Source: Mesoterricola sediminis (GTDB lineage: Bacteria > Acidobacteriota > Holophagae > Holophagales > Holophagaceae). Taken from it: a stretch of 64,000 bases of DNA. A program made the translations under genes and the position numbers. Each line of letters starts with the position of its first letter. Position 1 is the first letter of the stretch. Positions 7,606 to 15,388 of this stretch are shown here, one piece after another. The notes beneath the pieces were generated by a model. It searched no databases and was not told the origin of the DNA. It worked only from the letters and a program-made list of their open reading frames with translations. Where the stretch lies: assembly GCF_030295425.1 (NCBI RefSeq), contig NZ_AP027081.1:1178001-1242000 (forward strand), in the 5' to 3' direction.

Positions 7606-9132
7606 TCAGGCCGGGGCGGAGACGGAGCCCGCCAATCGACGGGCCTCCTCGGTGACGGGGGCGGGGAAGCCCGACAGCTCCAGAAGCCGGATGGCGTTGC
7701 GGGTGTAGACGGGACCCGGCCGCAGCCGGTAATCGAAGCCGAAGGCGTCACCGGTCACCTGCTCCGCGAAATGGTGGACGTCGAATCCGTCGGCCAGGGC
7801 CTGGCCCACCTCCAAGTCGTGGGTGGTGACGAGGACGAGGTGGGTGGCGCCCAGGTGGCGGAGCAGGGCGGTGGAGGCGGCGACCCGCTCGACGGTGTTG
7901 GTGCCGCGGAGGATCTCGTCGATGAGGAGGAGGTGGGGCCGGGGGGTGTCCGCGAAGGCCTTCAGGCGCTGGATCTCCACGAGGTAGTAGCTCTGGCCCG
8001 CCTCGAGGCGGTCCTCCCGGCGGATGGAGGAGGCCACCGGCAGGCGGGGGAGGGTGGCCTGGGCCGCCCGGACCAGATGCAGGGTCTGGGCCAGGACCAG
8101 GTTGACGCCCACGGTCTTGATGAAGGTGGTCTTGCCAGCCATGTTGGAGCCGGTGATGAGGACCGAGCGCCCGCGCACGGCCAGGTCGTTGCCCACCGGG
8201 TCCGCCAGGAGGGGGTGGGTCAGGTCCCGCACGTCCAGGTCCCGGCCGGTCCCGAAGGCCGGGGTGATGAAGGCTCCGGGCGCGGCGTCCAGGACGGCGG
8301 CGATGGCCAGGTCCGCGTCCAGCTCGCCGAGGGCCTCCAGGGCGGCCAGCAGGTCGCCGCGGTGGCGCAGGAGGGCTGGGACGGCCCAGAGGAAGGCCAC
8401 CACGTCCAGGAGGAAGAGGATGTTCAGGTAGCCGAAGACGACGGCCGCCAGCTCCGGCAGCTGGCTGCGGTCCACGGCCAGGGTGCTCAGGCGCGCCTGG
8501 ACGCGGGCCAGGGCCGGCCGGAGGGCCAGGAGCCGCGCCCGCGCGGGAAGGGGGGGGCCGCCGGGGAGCGTGGCCAGGGCGTCGGCCGCGGCGAGGAGGG
8601 CGTGGAGCCGGGAGAAGGCCGGGCCATGCACGGAGAGCCGGCGCCCCACGGTCTCGTTGAGGACGATGTTGACGAAGAGGAAGGCCAGCGACGCGATCAG
8701 GAGCCAGGGTGCGACCAGACCCCCCAGGATGCAGGCGAGGGGGGCCAGGGCGCAGGCGATGTAAAGCCCGGGGCTGGGCAGCTGGTCGGGCAGGCCGTGG
8801 ATGAGGAAGGGGGCCAGGAAGGGGGTTCCGGGGCCGCCCAGGGGCGCCAGGACCCGCCGGGCCCTGGCGGCCCAGGCCGGGTCCGCGCGCAGGGCCGCGT
8901 AGGCGCGGGTCCGGGCCTCCAGGTCGGCGTCGTCCGCGGCCAGGACGCGCAGGCGCCGGTAGAGCATCTGGCTCCCCATCCAGCTCGCGGTCCGGTCAAA
9001 GCGCCGGAAGACCTCGTCCAGCGCCAGGTCGGCCCAGGTGTCGCCGTCCACCGTCCCGGGCGCATCGCCCAGGGCCTGGTGGTAGAGCCGGACGAGGTCC
9101 AGGTCGCGGGGTTCCGGGGGCGTCGGAGGCAT
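7606..9132 (-). CDS. MutS-family ATPase with membrane segments
   Basis: A 508-residue protein with the C-terminal MutS ATPase domain: Walker A GSNMAGKTT near residue 325, Walker B LLLIDEILRGTN, and a switch His in VTTHDLEVG. The N-terminal mismatch-recognition, connector and full clamp domains of MutS are missing. In their place is a helical region with two strongly hydrophobic stretches (about residues 123-163), probably a membrane hairpin. This architecture is known as a MutS-related family of unknown function and is unlikely to be canonical mismatch repair. It is encoded alone between the helicase and the hydrogenase locus, with a weak ribosome-binding site at the ATG used. Confidence 0.85.
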   Translation of the reverse strand: MPPTPPEPRDLDLVRLYHQALGDAPGTVDGDTWADLALDEVFRRFDRTASWMGSQMLYRRLRVLAADDADLEARTRAYAALRADPAWAARARRVLAPLGGPGTPFLAPFLIHGLPDQLPSPGLYIACALAPLACILGGLVAPWLLIASLAFLFVNIVLNETVGRRLSVHGPAFSRLHALLAAADALATLPGGPPLPARARLLALRPALARVQARLSTLAVDRSQLPELAAVVFGYLNILFLLDVVAFLWAVPALLRHRGDLLAALEALGELDADLAIAAVLDAAPGAFITPAFGTGRDLDVRDLTHPLLADPVGNDLAVRGRSVLITGSNMAGKTTFIKTVGVNLVLAQTLHLVRAAQATLPRLPVASSIRREDRLEAGQSYYLVEIQRLKAFADTPRPHLLLIDEILRGTNTVERVAASTALLRHLGATHLVLVTTHDLEVGQALADGFDVHHFAEQVTGDAFGFDYRLRPGPVYTRNAIRLLELSGFPAPVTEEARRLAGSVSAPA

Positions 9133-9201: not shown

Positions 9202-10617
9202 CTACGGGCCCAGGCGGCGCTTGGCGAGGCGGGGGTCGGCGAGGGTGCAGGGACCGGAGACGCACCCGCCCTCGCAGCCCATGCCCTCCAGGAAGCGCGC
9301 GGGGCCCTTGCCCGACGCATAGGCGCGCAGGGCCTTCTGGGTGTCGGGGCCCAGGCCCGCCAGGGCCTCCGAGGCCGGGGCTTCGCCGGCGAGGTGGGCG
9401 AGCACGGCGGCCCGGACGCCGCCTGCGGCGGCGAAGCCGCGGCCGGCGGGGCTGGCCTGCAGGTCGGGGTCGACGGGGGCGCAGGCGGCGATCTCCAGGC
9501 CGCGGGCGAGGAAGAGGGAGCCCAGTTCCTCAACGGTGAGCACGTGGTGGGCCCCGTCCCCCTCCAGGACCTCCCGGCGCTTGGCGACGCAGGGGCTGAT
9601 GAAGACCCGCCTGGCCCCGGGAAAGCGCGCCTCGGCCAGGCCCGCGGCCACGGCCAGGGGGGTGGGGGTGGCGGAGATCCGGGGGGCGAGGGCGGGGAAT
9701 TTGGCCCGCACCAGCCCGGTGAAGGCGGGGCAGCAGCTGGTGGTCAGGACGGGCTCGCCGGCCTCCAGGCGCTCGACGAGCTCGGCGGCCTCCTGCCGGG
9801 CCACGGCGTCGGCGCCGGCGGCCACCTCCACCACGCCCTGGAAGCCGGCTTCCCGCAGCGCCCCGGCGAGGTGGGGCAGGGACACGTCGAACTGGGTCGC
9901 CAGGGCCGGGGCGAGGAGGGCGACCAGGGCCTCCCCCCGGGCGAGGGCCCCGGCCACGTCCACCAGCTCGGACACCTCGGCCACGGCGCCGAAGGGGCAC
10001 TTGGCCAGGCACTGGCCGCAGGCCACGCAGCGGGCCCTGTCGATGACCTGCTTGCCGTCCTCGCCCCGGGCGATGGCTCCGGCCGGGCAGGCCCGCTCGC
10101 AGGGGGCGGACAGCTTGTGGATGGCCTGGAAGGCGCAGAGGTCGCGGCATTTGCCGCAGTTCACGCAGGCGGCGGGATCGATGACGGCCCGGCCGTACTC
10201 CAGGCGGATAGCGTGCTTGGGGCAGGCCAGGGTGCAGGGGCGGGCAGCGCAGCCCCGGCAGGCGTCGGTGACCGTGTGGCGGCCCCGTTCGCAGGCGCTG
10301 CAGGCCTCGTCGATGACGGTGAGAAGGCGGTCGTCCCTGCGGCGGCGGGCCAGGGCCTCCCGGGCATAGGCGGCCAGGGGCTTGAGCTCGTCGGTCTCGT
10401 CCTCGGCGCCGAAGCCCAGCAGGGCCATGATCCGGTAGCGGAGGATGGCCCGCTCGCTGTGCACGCAGCACCGGAGGGGATCGGGGCGGGGGTGGCGGGG
10501 GCGGAGCTCCAGGGGGAGGCGGTCCACCCGCTCGGCCAGGGTGCCCTCCTGGATCCCCCGGGCCAGGTGGACCATGAGTTCGCGGCGCAGGCGGCTGGTC
10601 TGGGTTTCGTTGGGCAT
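9202..10617 (-). CDS. [FeFe]-hydrogenase catalytic subunit, group B-like
   Basis: A 471-residue iron-sulfur enzyme for reversible H2 oxidation/proton reduction. The N-terminal third has the CCVHSERAI motif I associate with group B, then several cysteine clusters of [4Fe-4S] ferredoxin type (CRGCAARPCTLACP, CVNCGKCRDLC, CVACGQCLAKCP). The H-cluster domain has TSCCPAF (P1, with the proton-transfer Cys retained), FISPCVAKRRE (P2) and EGMGCEGGCVSGP (P3). Group A enzymes have TSCCPGW, so P1 also points to group B. It is the last gene of the minus-strand rex-HydS cluster, 81 bp after the [2Fe-2S] gene and behind a strong hairpin. No hydB flavoprotein and no hydEFG maturases are in the window, so the electron partner is probably a ferredoxin. 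The group assignment comes from motifs only. Confidence 0.9.
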   Translation of the reverse strand: MPNETQTSRLRRELMVHLARGIQEGTLAERVDRLPLELRPRHPRPDPLRCCVHSERAILRYRIMALLGFGAEDETDELKPLAAYAREALARRRRDDRLLTVIDEACSACERGRHTVTDACRGCAARPCTLACPKHAIRLEYGRAVIDPAACVNCGKCRDLCAFQAIHKLSAPCERACPAGAIARGEDGKQVIDRARCVACGQCLAKCPFGAVAEVSELVDVAGALARGEALVALLAPALATQFDVSLPHLAGALREAGFQGVVEVAAGADAVARQEAAELVERLEAGEPVLTTSCCPAFTGLVRAKFPALAPRISATPTPLAVAAGLAEARFPGARRVFISPCVAKRREVLEGDGAHHVLTVEELGSLFLARGLEIAACAPVDPDLQASPAGRGFAAAGGVRAAVLAHLAGEAPASEALAGLGPDTQKALRAYASGKGPARFLEGMGCEGGCVSGPCTLADPRLAKRRLGP

Positions 10618-10653
10618 GGGTTCCTCGTGGGCGCCCGGGGGCGCCGGCAGGCT

Positions 10654-10678
10654 GCCGCCTCGCCTCTAGCGAGGCGGC
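10654..10678 (-). terminator. Strong intercistronic hairpin before the hydrogenase gene
   Basis: A perfect 10-bp stem (GCCGCCTCGC/GCGAGGCGGC) with a 5-nt loop lies in the 81-bp gap between the [2Fe-2S] protein gene and the group-B hydrogenase gene. There is no U-tract. It may be a partial terminator or an RNA-stabilising or processing structure that sets the level of hydrogenase relative to the upstream sensory genes. Confidence 0.5.
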
Positions 10679-10698
10679 GGACGTGGGGCCGATGGGGG

Positions 10699-10950
10699 TC
10701 AGCCCAGGCGTTCTTCCAGGCGGGCCACCACCTTGGCGACGGTGGCGCGCCCCATCAGTTCGTCCCCGATGAGGACGTAGGGGGCCTCCAGGCCCCGGCC
10801 TTCCCGGCAGTGGTCCAGGCAGCGGGCGCCGCGGACGCGGACGCGCCCCCGCAGGCCCTCGGGCAGCTGGTCCTCCAGCAGGAGGAGGCCGGTCCCGTCC
10901 ATGACGGTGCAGGCGGTTCCGGCGCAGATGGTGACGGTGAGGGGTTCCAT
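10699..10950 (-). CDS. Small thioredoxin-fold [2Fe-2S] ferredoxin (NuoE/HydC C-terminal-like)
   Basis: An 83-residue protein with the cysteine pattern C-x4-C (CAGTAC) and C-x3-C (CLDHC) of the thioredoxin-like [2Fe-2S] domain found in NuoE and in the HydC subunit of bifurcating hydrogenases. The helical N-terminal part of NuoE is absent, so only the cluster domain is present. It starts 11 bp after the phosphatase gene in the same operon and precedes the group-B hydrogenase. It most likely shuttles electrons between a hydrogenase and an unknown donor or acceptor. A similar protein is encoded at 13851-14150, so the locus has two, one on each side of the sensory genes. Confidence 0.88.
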   Translation of the reverse strand: MEPLTVTICAGTACTVMDGTGLLLLEDQLPEGLRGRVRVRGARCLDHCREGRGLEAPYVLIGDELMGRATVAKVVARLEERLG

Positions 10951-10961
10951 GGCGATCCTGC

Positions 10962-12137
10962 TCAGAAGTACGAGGTGGCGGTGGTCTTGAGGTGGCGCTG
11001 CTCGAGCAGCGCCGCGATGCGCTTGACGACGTTGCGGCGGATGTCCAGCTCCACGGGGAGGGCCGGATCCTGGTGGGCCTCGTTCACGCGGGTGCCCACC
11101 ATGAAATGGATGACGTCGCTCTCCAGGAGGAGGTCCATCATCCGGCTCGCGGCGTTGCGGCGGGGGGCGGCCCCGGCCTCCAGGTACTCGGCGACCTTGC
11201 CGAGGGTGAGGCAGCCTTCGGTGACGAGCTCCACGCCCGGCATGGTGGAGGGCACCGGGACCTCCCGGTCGTACTGGCCGAGGTCCATCTCCACTTCCAG
11301 GCCCAGCTCGCGGGCCACGATGGTGGACGTGGTGCCGCCCGAGACCACCTTCCGCACGCCCGGGGTCCGGGCCAGCTCCGCGAATTCCCGGTCCCGGGCC
11401 TCGTCGTAGGGAGGACCCGTGAGGACGTAGAGGGTTCGGGGGTGACGGAACTGGATGATGCCGCAGGTGATGTCGTCCCCCGCGGTGCCCCCGTCGTTCC
11501 AGAGGGCCCGGTCGACGAGGAGCTCGCTGAGCCGGCGCGCCCCGATGTCCGGGTTGCGCCGCACCTTGCCCAGCAGGAAGTCGCGCATGGGTCCCTCCCC
11601 CCAGCCCAGGGGATGGGCGTCGCTGCCCATGCCCGACTGGGTCACGCCGTCGGAGCAGAGCACGATGCGGTCGCCGATCCGGCTCTCGAATTCGCTCACG
11701 TGGAGGCGCCGGTTCCCCCAGCGGGGATGCGTGTGGCAGCGGCGCTCCACCTCGGCGGCCTCGCCGTCGCGGACGAGCAGGAAGGGGGGATTCCCGTGCT
11801 CGAAGATGCGCGTCCGGCCGTCCACGCGCGCGTCCACGATGGTGAAGGTGGAGTAGCTGACCCGGCGGACCGCATCCACGGGCAGGGAGTCCATGAGGAT
11901 GGTGGCGGCGCGCTCGGTGTCGATGTTCCAGGCCACGTATTCCTGGGCCATGGCGGCGGTGACCGATCCCAGCACCGCCGCCTCCGGGCCCGAGCTGAGG
12001 CCGTCGGCGAGGACGGAGACCACGCGCCCCTCCTCGATCTTGCGGCTGAGGAAGACGTCGCCGGCGAGCCGCTCGCGGTCGCAGGCCAGGGCGTGGTGGT
12101 CCACCTCCACGAAGAGGGCCTCAGGGGCGGGGCTCAT
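10962..12137 (-). CDS. SpoIIE/PP2C-type serine phosphatase of the hydrogenase locus
   Basis: A 391-residue protein. Its first two thirds form a SpoIIE-type PP2C phosphatase domain: the metal-binding Asp residues are visible in SVLADGLSSG near the N-terminus, in VLCSDGVTQSG, and in GDDITCGII. The last third is a conserved extension with no domain I recognise. Phosphatases of this kind are known next to group-C [FeFe]-hydrogenase sensors, where they are thought to relay the H2 signal. The ATG at 12137 has GGAGG five bases upstream and overlaps the hydrogenase-sensor gene by 17 bp, which indicates translational coupling. A GTG two codons earlier is less likely. The phosphoprotein substrate is not identifiable here. 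Confidence 0.88.
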   Translation of the reverse strand: MSPAPEALFVEVDHHALACDRERLAGDVFLSRKIEEGRVVSVLADGLSSGPEAAVLGSVTAAMAQEYVAWNIDTERAATILMDSLPVDAVRRVSYSTFTIVDARVDGRTRIFEHGNPPFLLVRDGEAAEVERRCHTHPRWGNRRLHVSEFESRIGDRIVLCSDGVTQSGMGSDAHPLGWGEGPMRDFLLGKVRRNPDIGARRLSELLVDRALWNDGGTAGDDITCGIIQFRHPRTLYVLTGPPYDEARDREFAELARTPGVRKVVSGGTTSTIVARELGLEVEMDLGQYDREVPVPSTMPGVELVTEGCLTLGKVAEYLEAGAAPRRNAASRMMDLLLESDVIHFMVGTRVNEAHQDPALPVELDIRRNVVKRIAALLEQRHLKTTATSYF

Positions 12138-13854
12138 GGGCACCTCCCCCGGTCCGCTCCTGTCCGGAGAACTCGGCGATGATGGAGTTGAGGATGCCCT
12201 CGGAGCGGGCCGCGTTGCGGCCCAGGCTGAAGGCGATCTCCTGGACGTTGCCGAGCATGTTCTGGATCACCAGCTCGGCCTTCCCGATGACCTGGCGGCG
12301 GCGCTCCTCCTCGCCCGTGACGTCCAGGAGGAGGGCGCCCGCGACCTGGTGGGGCTCCACGGCGAAGATCGTGGCGCTGAGGACCTTCTCGCCGCACTGC
12401 AGGTTCTGGCGGATGATCTCGTCCCCGCCGGCCAGGACCTCCCGGAACCGGTCGCCGAAGGGCACGAACTTCTCGAGCCGGGCGTCGGCGAGGCCGGGGA
12501 TGGCCTGGTAGGCGGTCAGGGCGTCCTCGCCCATGATGCGGGCGAACTCCTCGTTGCTCTCGATGATGCGGAGGTCCTGGTCGACGATCACCACCCCCAG
12601 GGGCAGGGTGCGGAGCAGGGCGTTGGCCTTCTTCTCGGCCAGGCGCCGCAGGTTGGAGACGCACATGAGCCCTTCCGCGTCGCCGGCCAGGATGGCGGAG
12701 GCCAGGGCCCTGCAGGTGTCGTACCCGCAGGCGCCGCAGTTGAGCTCGTCCCCGGCGCAGCGCTTCCCGATCTGGTGCAGGGCTGCCTCCAGCTGGTCGT
12801 CCCGGAAGACCGGGCCCGCCTGCGGACGCGGGTCGTAGGTCCGCCCCAGCCCGGGGCCCCAGGAGCGGGGGTAGGCGCCGGGCTCCGTCCGGGCCGCGTC
12901 CAGGATGCGCATGTAGGCCTCCACGGGGGAGCGCCGGGTGGCCTTGGGCCCCCGCACGCAGCCGCCTTCGCAGGCCAGGAGCTCCAGGAACAGGTTGCCC
13001 TCCGCCGGGGGGCGGAGGCCTTCGAGGGCCTCCCGGATGGCGGTGACGCCCGCGAGGGTGAGGAAGCGCGTCCGGTCCGTGGCCATGTTCAGGCGGGTGG
13101 CCCGGGCCATGCCGCCCTCCACGGGATAGAAGGCGCCCTCGGCCGCGGGGCCTCCGGCGAAGGCGTCGTCCGGCCCCGGCTCCAGGTCGGCGGGCGCCAG
13201 GCCCGCGTCGTCCAGCCAGGTCCGCAGGTCCTCGAAGGTGAGGGCCGCGGCGAGGAGGCCGGGGTGGCTCTCCGCCTCCAGCTTCTTGCCGATGCAGGGG
13301 CCGATGAAGACCACCTTGGCCTCCGCGCCGAAGGCGCGCTGGAGCATCGCCGCGTGGGCCTGGGCCGGCGAGGCCACCGGGGTGAGGTGGGCGGCCAGGT
13401 CGGGGCGGGTGCCGCGCACGAGGCTCACCGCCACGGGACAGGCGGTGGACAGCCAGAGGCGGCCCTTCTCCCGGTCCAGGTCGCGGGCGATGCGGGCGCT
13501 CACCTCCTGGGCGCCCAGGGCCGTCTCGCCGGCCCCGGCGAACCCGAGGCGGCGCAGGGCGGCCGCCATGCGGGCCGGGGCCAGCCCGGGGAACTCGGAG
13601 ATCCAGGAGGGCGCCAGGGACGCCACCACGGGGCCGCTTCCGGCCACCAGGCCCTTCACCCGGGGCAGGTCGTCCCGCACCCGCTTCGCGCCCGCGGGGC
13701 AGGCCTCGACGCAGGCGCCGCAGGCGACGCAGCGCTCCGGATCGATGGCCGCGTGGCCCTGGGCCACCCGGATCGCCTTGACCGGGCACTGGCGCAGGCA
13801 CTTGTAGCAGTCCTGGCACTGGGCCGCTTCGGAGCGGACGGGGCCGCTCCTCAC
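12121..13854 (-). CDS. hydS: Sensory group-C [FeFe]-hydrogenase with PAS domain (HydS-like)
   Basis: A 577-residue protein. An N-terminal pair of [4Fe-4S] clusters (CQDCYKCLRQCP, CVACGACVEACP) precedes an H-cluster domain with STACP (P1), FIGPCIGKKLE (P2) and LACEGGCVRGP (P3). The first Cys of the usual TSCCP is Ala, the change expected for sensory group-C enzymes that lose the proton-transfer Cys. Then come a further Fe-S motif (CGACGYDTCRALA...C, about 370-400) and a PAS domain (about 410-520) with a helical C-terminus, so it probably signals rather than turns over H2. The GTG start at 13854 overlaps the preceding stop codon as GTGA; an upstream in-frame start would run through the ferredoxin gene and was rejected. 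The partner is likely the phosphatase encoded next. Confidence 0.9.
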   Translation of the reverse strand: MRSGPVRSEAAQCQDCYKCLRQCPVKAIRVAQGHAAIDPERCVACGACVEACPAGAKRVRDDLPRVKGLVAGSGPVVASLAPSWISEFPGLAPARMAAALRRLGFAGAGETALGAQEVSARIARDLDREKGRLWLSTACPVAVSLVRGTRPDLAAHLTPVASPAQAHAAMLQRAFGAEAKVVFIGPCIGKKLEAESHPGLLAAALTFEDLRTWLDDAGLAPADLEPGPDDAFAGGPAAEGAFYPVEGGMARATRLNMATDRTRFLTLAGVTAIREALEGLRPPAEGNLFLELLACEGGCVRGPKATRRSPVEAYMRILDAARTEPGAYPRSWGPGLGRTYDPRPQAGPVFRDDQLEAALHQIGKRCAGDELNCGACGYDTCRALASAILAGDAEGLMCVSNLRRLAEKKANALLRTLPLGVVIVDQDLRIIESNEEFARIMGEDALTAYQAIPGLADARLEKFVPFGDRFREVLAGGDEIIRQNLQCGEKVLSATIFAVEPHQVAGALLLDVTGEEERRRQVIGKAELVIQNMLGNVQEIAFSLGRNAARSEGILNSIIAEFSGQERTGGGAHEPRP

Positions 13855-14150
13855 AGCACCCGCTCCAGCAGGGCCTCCAGGGCCTCGGGAGACACCCCGT
13901 GGACGAGCTCGCCGTCCAGGCGGAGGTTGGGGCCCTGCTGGCACATGCCCTCGCAGCGGCTCCCCTTGAGGGTGACCCGGTCCTCCAGGCCCCGCGCGCG
14001 AAGCCATTCCTGGATGTGGGGCAGATGGTCGTCATTGCCCCGGGTGAAGCAGGAGCTGCCGAGGCAGACGGTGAGGACCGGCTTGGGGGCGGCGGGCGAA
14101 GCTTCCGCCGGACCCGGGCCGGGGCCCGGGTGCGGTTCGTTGGCTGGCAT
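13851..14150 (-). CDS. Thioredoxin-fold [2Fe-2S] ferredoxin
   Basis: A 99-residue protein with a Pro/Ala-rich first 25 residues, then a [2Fe-2S] thioredoxin-like domain whose cysteines follow C-x4-C (CLGSSC) and C-x3-C (CEGMC). It lies between rex and the sensory hydrogenase and is translationally coupled to the latter through a 4-bp overlap. The start has a GAGGAG site five bases upstream. Homologous small proteins occur in the same position in clostridial rex-hydS-hydABC clusters, where their role is presumed electron transfer. It differs clearly in sequence from the second copy at 10699-10950. Confidence 0.87.
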   Translation of the reverse strand: MPANEPHPGPGPGPAEASPAAPKPVLTVCLGSSCFTRGNDDHLPHIQEWLRARGLEDRVTLKGSRCEGMCQQGPNLRLDGELVHGVSPEALEALLERVL

Positions 14151-14179
14151 GGGGACTCCTCAGGGAAGGGGGAGGCGGT

Positions 14180-14851
14180 TCAGACCGGGACCTCCCCGAT
14201 GGGGGCCGGCACGACCCGCCCCTGGGCGGACAAACGTGCGGAAAGGACGGCGAGGCCGACGGCGATGTCCTGGTTCTGGACGATGACGGCCGGGGGCAGG
14301 TCGAGGGTCGCGCCGGTGAAGTTCCAGATGCCCTCGATGCCGGCGGCCGCCAGGCGGCGCGCGGCCTCCTGGGCCGCCTCGGGGGAGACGGTGAGAATGG
14401 CCATCCGGGCGCCCAGTTCGGGGAGGCGGGCTTCCAGCTCGTGCATGGGGTGCACGGGGATGCCGTGGACCTCCCCGCTCCGGGGATCGAGGTCGAAGGC
14501 GGCGCGGATCTCCAGCCCGTGGTTGGCGAAGCCCCGGTAGCCCAGGAGGGCCTGGCCCAGGTGCCCGGCCCCCACGAGGATCGCGGCGGAGACCCGGTTC
14601 CAGTTGAGGTGGCCCTCGATGGCCTCCACCAGCTCGGAGGTGCGGAAGCCGATCTTGGGGCGGCCCACGATGCCGATCAGGCCGAAATCCTTGCGGACCT
14701 GGACCGGGTCCAGGCGGAGGAGCTCGCCCAGGCGGGCGCTGGAGACCACCTCCCGGCCCGCGCGGTGCATCTCCCGCACCACCCGCAGGTAGTTCGGCAG
14801 CCTCTGGACGGTCGTGAGGGGGAGCCCTCCGATCCGGTACCCGAAGACCAT
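14180..14851 (-). CDS. rex: Redox-sensing transcriptional repressor Rex
   Basis: A 223-residue protein. The N-terminal winged helix (about residues 10-75) has the Rex signature LPNYLRVVREM...LDPVQVRKDFGLIG and GRPKIGF; the Rossmann domain has the NADH-binding GAGHLGQAL, and the C-terminal helix is present. Rex binds DNA when NAD+/NADH is high and releases it when NADH rises, turning on fermentative and hydrogenase genes. It is first in the minus-strand hydrogenase operon, so it probably represses the whole locus including itself. The ATG at 14851 has AGGAGG five bases upstream. The longer frame lacks a ribosome-binding site and would include the operator-like repeats upstream. Confidence 0.95.
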   Translation of the reverse strand: MVFGYRIGGLPLTTVQRLPNYLRVVREMHRAGREVVSSARLGELLRLDPVQVRKDFGLIGIVGRPKIGFRTSELVEAIEGHLNWNRVSAAILVGAGHLGQALLGYRGFANHGLEIRAAFDLDPRSGEVHGIPVHPMHELEARLPELGARMAILTVSPEAAQEAARRLAAAGIEGIWNFTGATLDLPPAVIVQNQDIAVGLAVLSARLSAQGRVVPAPIGEVPV

Positions 14852-14880: not shown

Positions 14881-14910
14881 CAATTGATATCGATACCGCA
14901 AGATCAATTG
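14881..14910. promoter_or_regulatory. Promoter/operator region of rex with inverted repeats
   Basis: Perfect 8-bp arms CAATTGAT (14881-14888) and ATCAATTG (14903-14910) are separated by 14 bp, with the palindrome TATCGATA (14888-14895) between them. This is 30-60 bp upstream of the rex start in an A+T-rich island. Half-sites of the type TTG...CAA recall Rex boxes, but the classic 18-bp Rex palindrome is not exact here. Autoregulation by Rex is an inference. Confidence 0.5.
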
Positions 14911-15032
14911 TGCCCCGGTCCGGACGGATGTCAAGGCCCGTGCCGGATCCTGCAGATGATAGGGCTCGACTCAACCAGGCATCCCGGCTGAGGCCAGGTT
15001 GAAGGTTGGATCAGGGCCATCCCCGTCATCCT

Positions 15033-15157
15033 GCCCATCTGCGTTCATCCGCGTTTCCGCAGGGCCAGCCAATGGTCGGGTAGGCGCACGCCTGACCTGC
15101 ACGCGCCGACCCACGCCTTCCCTGGCCCTGCGGAAACGCGGATGAACGCAGATGGGC
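15033..15157. repeat. Intergenic element: perfect 36-bp inverted repeat
   Basis: The 36 bp at 15033-15068 recur exactly, reversed and complemented, at 15122-15157, with 53 bp between them. The arms contain phrases such as GCGTTCATCCGCGTTTCCGC, which I recall as widespread dispersed intergenic sequence in high-G+C genomes. No coding frame fits. The transcript would form a very stable hairpin between rex and the hydrolase gene. The rest of the 14852-15388 gap holds the rex promoter and no gene that I can support. Confidence 0.8.
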
Positions 15158-15388
15158 GGGGTGAACGGGGATCTGGCTTCAGCAGGCTGGTTCATTCGAA
15201 AGCCAAGGCTGGCTGTCCCGGCCCGAATGCCCTTGGCCAGGGTGCCGCTCTGCAGTTGGCCCGACTCGGGCAGGAACCGCGCCAGGACTCGGCGGAAGGG
15301 CTCCCACCCGGGGGGAGATGGTGACAGGCGGAGGACAGATCTGGCTCGACAACAATAGGAAAATCAGATTTTGCGAAGGGTGCAACCT

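Follow-up and report, generated by a model that had tools for sequence, protein, structure and literature searches.

A Rex-headed, Hfs-type [FeFe]-hydrogenase operon in Mesoterricola sediminis and the distribution of its HydS-phosphatase pair

We analyzed a unit of six genes in a 64-kb stretch of the Mesoterricola sediminis genome (Acidobacteriota, Holophagaceae), the whole of which is called the window in the following. The unit occupies the minus strand from position 14851 down to 9202 in the order rex, TRX1, HydS, phosphatase, TRX2 and HydA. Its best reading is an Hfs-type operon under its own Rex, where the homology to the hfs genes of Thermoanaerobacterium is taken from the descriptions in the respective papers. 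Loci of this kind are widespread and under-described. The combination of a small ferredoxin, a HydS-type sensor, a phosphatase, a second small ferredoxin and a group B hydrogenase is already known, and the rex gene at its head is a genus-level variation. With regard to function we consider it rather probable that a ferredoxin-dependent hydrogenase of the Hfs type is controlled here by H2 feedback through HydS and the phosphatase and by NADH feedback through Rex.

The six-gene unit and its catalytic hydrogenase

All six frames are open, and their family matches agree with the identities proposed in an initial annotation of the window, which had described six genes on one strand with overlapping or near-touching ends. 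The overlaps amount to 4 nucleotides (TRX1/HydS) and 23 nucleotides (HydS/phosphatase), and the gaps to 29 (rex/TRX1), 11 (phosphatase/TRX2) and 81 nucleotides (TRX2/HydA). As the identical gene order is found in other genomes, a chance arrangement is ruled out.

The last gene (9202-10617) encodes HydA, which judged by its sequence is a group B [FeFe]-hydrogenase of 471 residues. It scores 462.4 bits against the group B model TIGR04105 (curated cut-off 450) compared to 136.8 bits against the group A model (cut-off 405.95). In a tree of 62 H-domains from group A, group B and sensory enzymes it falls within a branch that unites 24 group B enzymes and is supported at 99 in the Shimodaira-Hasegawa-like approximate likelihood ratio test (SH-aLRT). 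Family scores and tree together rule out a placement in group A, in agreement with the group that had been annotated. The motifs TTSCCPAF, SPCVAKRR and MGCEGGCVSGP retain the four H-cluster cysteines and the proton-relay cysteine, and they differ from the H-cluster motifs of a group A example in the same genome. Within the genus the HydA proteins reach 441-462 bits against TIGR04105, compared to 519-545 bits, all above the cut-off, for three HydA proteins from the loci of other phyla described below.

The absence of hydB from the unit, also claimed initially, holds: no HydB or NuoE match occurs within the window, and the hydB homologues of the genome were located at four hydrogenase loci elsewhere. 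An identity of the unit as electron-bifurcating HydABC is ruled out by the lack of HydB and NuoE matches in the window. The genome (4.52 Mb, single contig) contains eight Fe_hyd_lg_C genes. Four of the encoded hydrogenases belong to group A, and each of these adjoins NuoE- and HydB-type genes, which means that enzymes of the bifurcating type are present in the same cell, outside the rex-hydA unit. The maturation proteins HydE, HydF and HydG are all encoded in the genome, each scoring above its cut-off.

One further locus of this genome (L010) has the order rex-nuoE-hydB-hydA-TRX-hydS-phosphatase. Its rex, TRX1, HydS and phosphatase are paralogues of the window genes, the phosphatases being 46-48% identical, but it differs by containing HydB and a group A HydA of the bifurcating type. 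A third sensory hydrogenase of this genome (L012, 7524-9572), in which HydS is fused at its C-terminus to a region with homology to histidine kinases, adjoins a rex-nuoE-hydB-hydA group, and the sensory gene is followed by a response-regulator-like gene.

Putative sensor, phosphatase and candidate promoter region

HydS (12121-13854, minus strand, 577 residues, GTG start; PF02906 and PF04060) is a putative sensory [FeFe]-hydrogenase of the group C type. It is composed of two N-terminal [4Fe-4S] sites, the H-domain, a C-terminal [4Fe-4S] motif, a PAS-like domain and a C-terminal helix, and it groups with the sensory branch of the H-domain tree. The replacement of the proton-transfer cysteine by alanine, noticed already in the initial annotation, is located in the motif STACP, and alanine is nearly invariant at this site among 41 HydS sequences. 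The C-terminal cluster motif Cx2Cx4Cx16C, here CGACGYDTC-x16-C, has its cysteines invariant in the same 41 sequences and is matched by PF04060 with 36.6 bits. The match to PAS_8 is weak (18.2 bits, below the cut-off of 21.8), with 21.6 bits for a relative (L030) and 23.6 bits for the L010 paralogue, and a structure model of HydS exhibits the PAS-like order of strands and helices at about residues 413-512.

The adjoining gene (10962-12143, minus strand) codes for a Ser/Thr phosphatase of the SpoIIE/PP2C type with 393 residues (PF07228, 44.2 bits), as had been annotated, and its catalytic metal-ligand aspartate is conserved. The structure model has a mean predicted local distance difference test score (pLDDT) of 91.4 and a PP2C fold, with 3pu9 as the best match (Z 25.7, root-mean-square deviation 2.8 over 221 residues). 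The C-terminal part of approximately 158 residues (10962-11438) is conserved across phyla outside of any Pfam family, and its motifs GGTT, TEG, QDP and IRRN are among the most conserved of the protein. A sequence search of the PDB with this domain gave no match, and a fold search with the whole model returned matches to the catalytic domain. Pfam NBD_C appeared for the C-terminal domain in two of five members with E-values of 0.012-0.19, below the cut-off, and this relation was not accepted.

Two small proteins accompany the hydrogenases. TRX1 (13851-14150, minus strand, 99 residues) is a thioredoxin-fold [2Fe-2S] ferredoxin with 35.1 bits against PF01257 (cut-off 24.8), and its C-x4-C...C-x3-C pattern is retained in all 32 group B loci collected in our survey. 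TRX2 (10699-10950, minus strand, 83 residues) stays below the same cut-off with 19.5 bits; it is counted as a second [2Fe-2S] protein together with its four cysteines, all kept in 32 of 32 loci, and it takes the position directly ahead of HydA that is found in loci of the group B type.

The first gene, rex (14180-14851, minus strand), encodes the NAD(H)-responsive repressor of 223 residues, which matches NF003994 with 221.5 bits (cut-off 130) and consists of a winged helix (PF06971) and an NAD-binding domain (PF02629). Upstream of it, at 14881-14934 on the minus strand, lies a candidate promoter with operator: TTGACA (14934-14929), ACAATT (14911-14906) and the palindrome CAATTGAT...ATCAATTG (14910-14881). 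A similar arrangement precedes rex in three relatives of the genus (G001, G004 and G005), with ACAATT approximately 17 bp after TTGACA and a palindrome beginning at the −10 region, which in these relatives is a perfect inverted repeat (CAATTGCTACC.TGGTATCGATACCA.GGTAGCAATTG). The palindrome core occurs at one site per genome in the three relatives, and no match within three mismatches was found in the genome of the window. This uniqueness suggests a locus-specific operator, most simply that of the dedicated Rex, although the predicted site is a poor canonical fit, which is why its role as a Rex operator is one that we infer. A regulon of the palindrome is ruled out as far as close matches are concerned, given that each of these relatives has one site only and the genome of the window none within three mismatches.

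Several features lie next to these elements. The gap between TRX2 and HydA (10618-10698) is rich in strong GC-rich hairpins (a 94-nucleotide fold of −50.7 kcal/mol, z −2.8); the relatives are almost without this gap and the two genes nearly touch there. The hairpins might set the expression of hydA apart from the upstream genes. A gene for a MutS-like ATPase (7606-9132) begins on the same strand 69 nucleotides past the end of hydA and could be co-transcribed with the hydrogenase operon. Upstream of the operon an inverted-repeat element similar to repetitive extragenic palindromes was found at 15040-15185. It has 29 matches in the genome, many of them sites counted on both strands, and the best other copies are 92-93% identical.

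Distribution in other genomes and alternative readings

To place the unit in a wider context we scanned the GTDB species genomes with an alignment of the phosphatase. This gave 498 relatives, of which the best 80 were taken with their flanks; none of these 80 came from Firmicutes. The order TRX1-HydS-phosphatase-TRX2-HydA with a group B HydA was found in 29 of the best 80 loci, namely in Spirochaetota (many of them Treponema-like), gut Alphaproteobacteria and one Myxococcota bin. In a survey of 92 complete HydS-phosphatase pairs, for which a hydrogenase partner was sought within 9 kb, the partner belonged to group A in 33 cases and to group B in 32, and 27 pairs had none, some of these being limited by contig ends. 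The expectation that such clusters normally contain hydB and a group A hydA is not supported by these numbers. A rex gene was nearby in 10 of 33 group A loci, in 6 of the 27 without partner and in 3 of 32 group B loci. These three are the window and two relatives of the same genus, and a relaxed search of the remaining 29 group B loci revealed no rex. Among the 32 group B loci, rex at the head of the unit therefore looks peculiar to the genus of the window.

The initial annotation had considered the gene combination undescribed and had proposed to compare its order among relatives. The full order from rex to a group B HydA is kept in two members of the genus (G001 and G005) at 58-75% protein identity, and a third (G004) has it in part. 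Other Holophagaceae have rex-TRX1-HydS-phosphatase or HydS-phosphatase by themselves, with no adjoining hydrogenase. Beside the group A loci, neighbor clustering found genes of the maturation type (radical SAM, HydF-like GTPase). As for a kinase or STAS substrate gene next to the operon in other phyla, clustering the neighbors of the group B loci gave general families only. An open reading frame for an RsbW-like ATPase, of the anti-sigma kinase type, lies approximately 3 kb downstream of one stand-alone TRX-HydS-phosphatase trio (L035, 10289-10735) and is a possible partner kinase of that phosphatase. In another Acidobacteriota family (G225; L146, 20-1933) a TRX1-like protein, a PAS-like protein of 167 residues that has no hydrogenase domain and a phosphatase related at 32% identity stand together, resembling the TRX-HydS-phosphatase module minus its H-cluster part.

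The following mechanism is conceivable for the two-feedback control that we favor. Rex would repress the operon from the promoter-overlapping palindrome and would be released as NADH/NAD+ rises. HydA would take electrons from reduced ferredoxin and release H2, by analogy with characterized group B enzymes. HydS, which possesses the architecture of a sensor, may perceive H2 or the redox state at its H-cluster, and this state could be passed via the C-terminal [4Fe-4S] cluster to the PAS-like domain and the helical tail. By homology, and by analogy with the hfsB and hfsC deletions, HydS might then switch the phosphatase, which would alter the phosphorylation of a target and adjust electron disposal. 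The two [2Fe-2S] proteins probably connect HydS and HydA to electron donors. The H2- and NADH-responsive logic suggested in the initial annotation appears plausible. The HydS-phosphatase pairs that have no hydrogenase partner within 9 kb fit signalling instead of catalysis.

The following points speak against this proposal. The literature still calls H2 sensing by HydS proteins putative (PMC8924675). The palindrome in the window is shorter than that of the relatives (30 bp vs 38 bp) and fits the standard Rex motif (TTGTGAANNNNTTCACAA type) poorly. Finally, the locus of G004 (L029, 5476-9228) contains rex-TRX1-HydS-phosphatase without TRX2 and HydA, so that the HydS sensor need not serve a group B enzyme. 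At this locus an unrelated open reading frame with ATPase-like sequence adjoins on the opposite strand.

There is a different reading, for which we see a limited chance: the HydS-phosphatase pair could be a general H2-responsive switch with targets elsewhere, e.g. a partner-switching protein or another one regulated by phosphorylation, and the adjoining hydrogenase would merely be co-expressed. The 27 pairs without a hydrogenase within 9 kb include complete loci from the same family; on the tree of HydS and phosphatase the type of partner requires no fewer than 17 changes (minimum 2, mean of shuffled labels 43.9), and deletion of hfsB in Thermoanaerobacterium saccharolyticum alters adhE expression (PMC5707799). 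Against a general switch stand the contig ends that limit some of the pairs without partner. The five genes with a group B HydA also retain their order across several phyla, and this conservation suggests that they are linked in function. The conserved cysteines of both [2Fe-2S] proteins could also be taken to mean that HydS, these two proteins and HydA form one multi-subunit Hfs hydrogenase with signalling as a secondary aspect, and HfsABC as a functional hydrogenase has been raised as a possibility (PMC13277313). We regard this as improbable: nearly all HydS members are without the proton-relay cysteine, HydS contains a PAS-like domain and is accompanied by a phosphatase, the pair also occurs by itself, and in T. 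thermosaccharolyticum the ethanol phenotype was obtained by expressing hfsD without the other genes (PMC11837493). A cassette that was acquired recently or is decaying, and that does little in the genus, would be in line with the patchy occurrence (phosphatase at E ≤ 1e-60 in 9 of 396 Acidobacteriota genomes), the two genes missing in G004 and the lower HydA scores of the genus. Open frames, intact cluster cysteines and motifs, the full order in G001 and G005 in spite of their divergence and the conserved promoter element make this highly improbable.

More tentatively, the survey may be taken one step further. TRX-HydS-phosphatase could be a portable H2-signalling cassette that was repeatedly re-attached to group A enzymes of the bifurcating type, to group B or to no hydrogenase. 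The genus would have added a dedicated Rex together with an operator for it, which would place the formation of H2 from ferredoxin under two-input control (NADH and H2). The phosphatase might then have its specificity part in the C-terminal domain. The survey bears on the question how sensory [FeFe]-hydrogenases signal. The HydS-phosphatase pair reaches far beyond Firmicutes, is about as frequent with group B as with group A and often occurs alone, and this distribution makes the phosphatase with its unnamed conserved C-terminal domain an output worth studying. The rex-headed unit offers a system for testing NADH and H2 side by side as inputs to a single hydrogenase.

Comparison with known systems

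The closest counterpart by description is hfsABCD of Thermoanaerobacterium, in which HfsB is a PAS-bearing [FeFe]-hydrogenase, HfsC a serine phosphatase and HfsD a ferredoxin-linked hydrogenase (PMC11837493), the latter assigned to group B within the hfs locus of T. saccharolyticum (PMC8924675). Sensory hydrogenase, serine phosphatase and group B enzyme follow in the same order as in the window, again without hydB. The genetics of the locus have been described (PMC5707799, PMC11837493): ethanol yield and adhE expression increase upon deletion of hfsA or hfsB, and flux is diverted to lactate upon deletion of hfsC or hfsD (PMC5707799). Group B enzymes of Bacteroides reoxidize ferredoxin reduced by PFOR (PMC12578642). 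The two systems come from different phyla and differ in rex, which heads the unit of the window; in T. saccharolyticum rex is tsac_2615 and hfsB is tsac_1551 (PMC12288451), a numbering according to which the two genes are unlinked.

Two further arrangements can be compared. Ruminococcus albus has hydS for a sensory and hydA2 for a ferredoxin-dependent hydrogenase, and their arrangement is described as resembling that of hfsB and hfsD (cited in PMC5707799 and PMC11837493). In the Firmicute Vallitalea guaymasensis a sensory hydrogenase of HydDB class C3 (peg.96) and a group B hydrogenase (peg.98) are separated by one gene number, and the passage on them mentions no rex (PMC6163223). Given the hfs literature, the Vallitalea pair and the 29 loci of our survey, the novelty claimed in the initial annotation does not extend to TRX-HydS-phosphatase-TRX-HydA with a group B enzyme and persists for rex as the leading gene of the unit.

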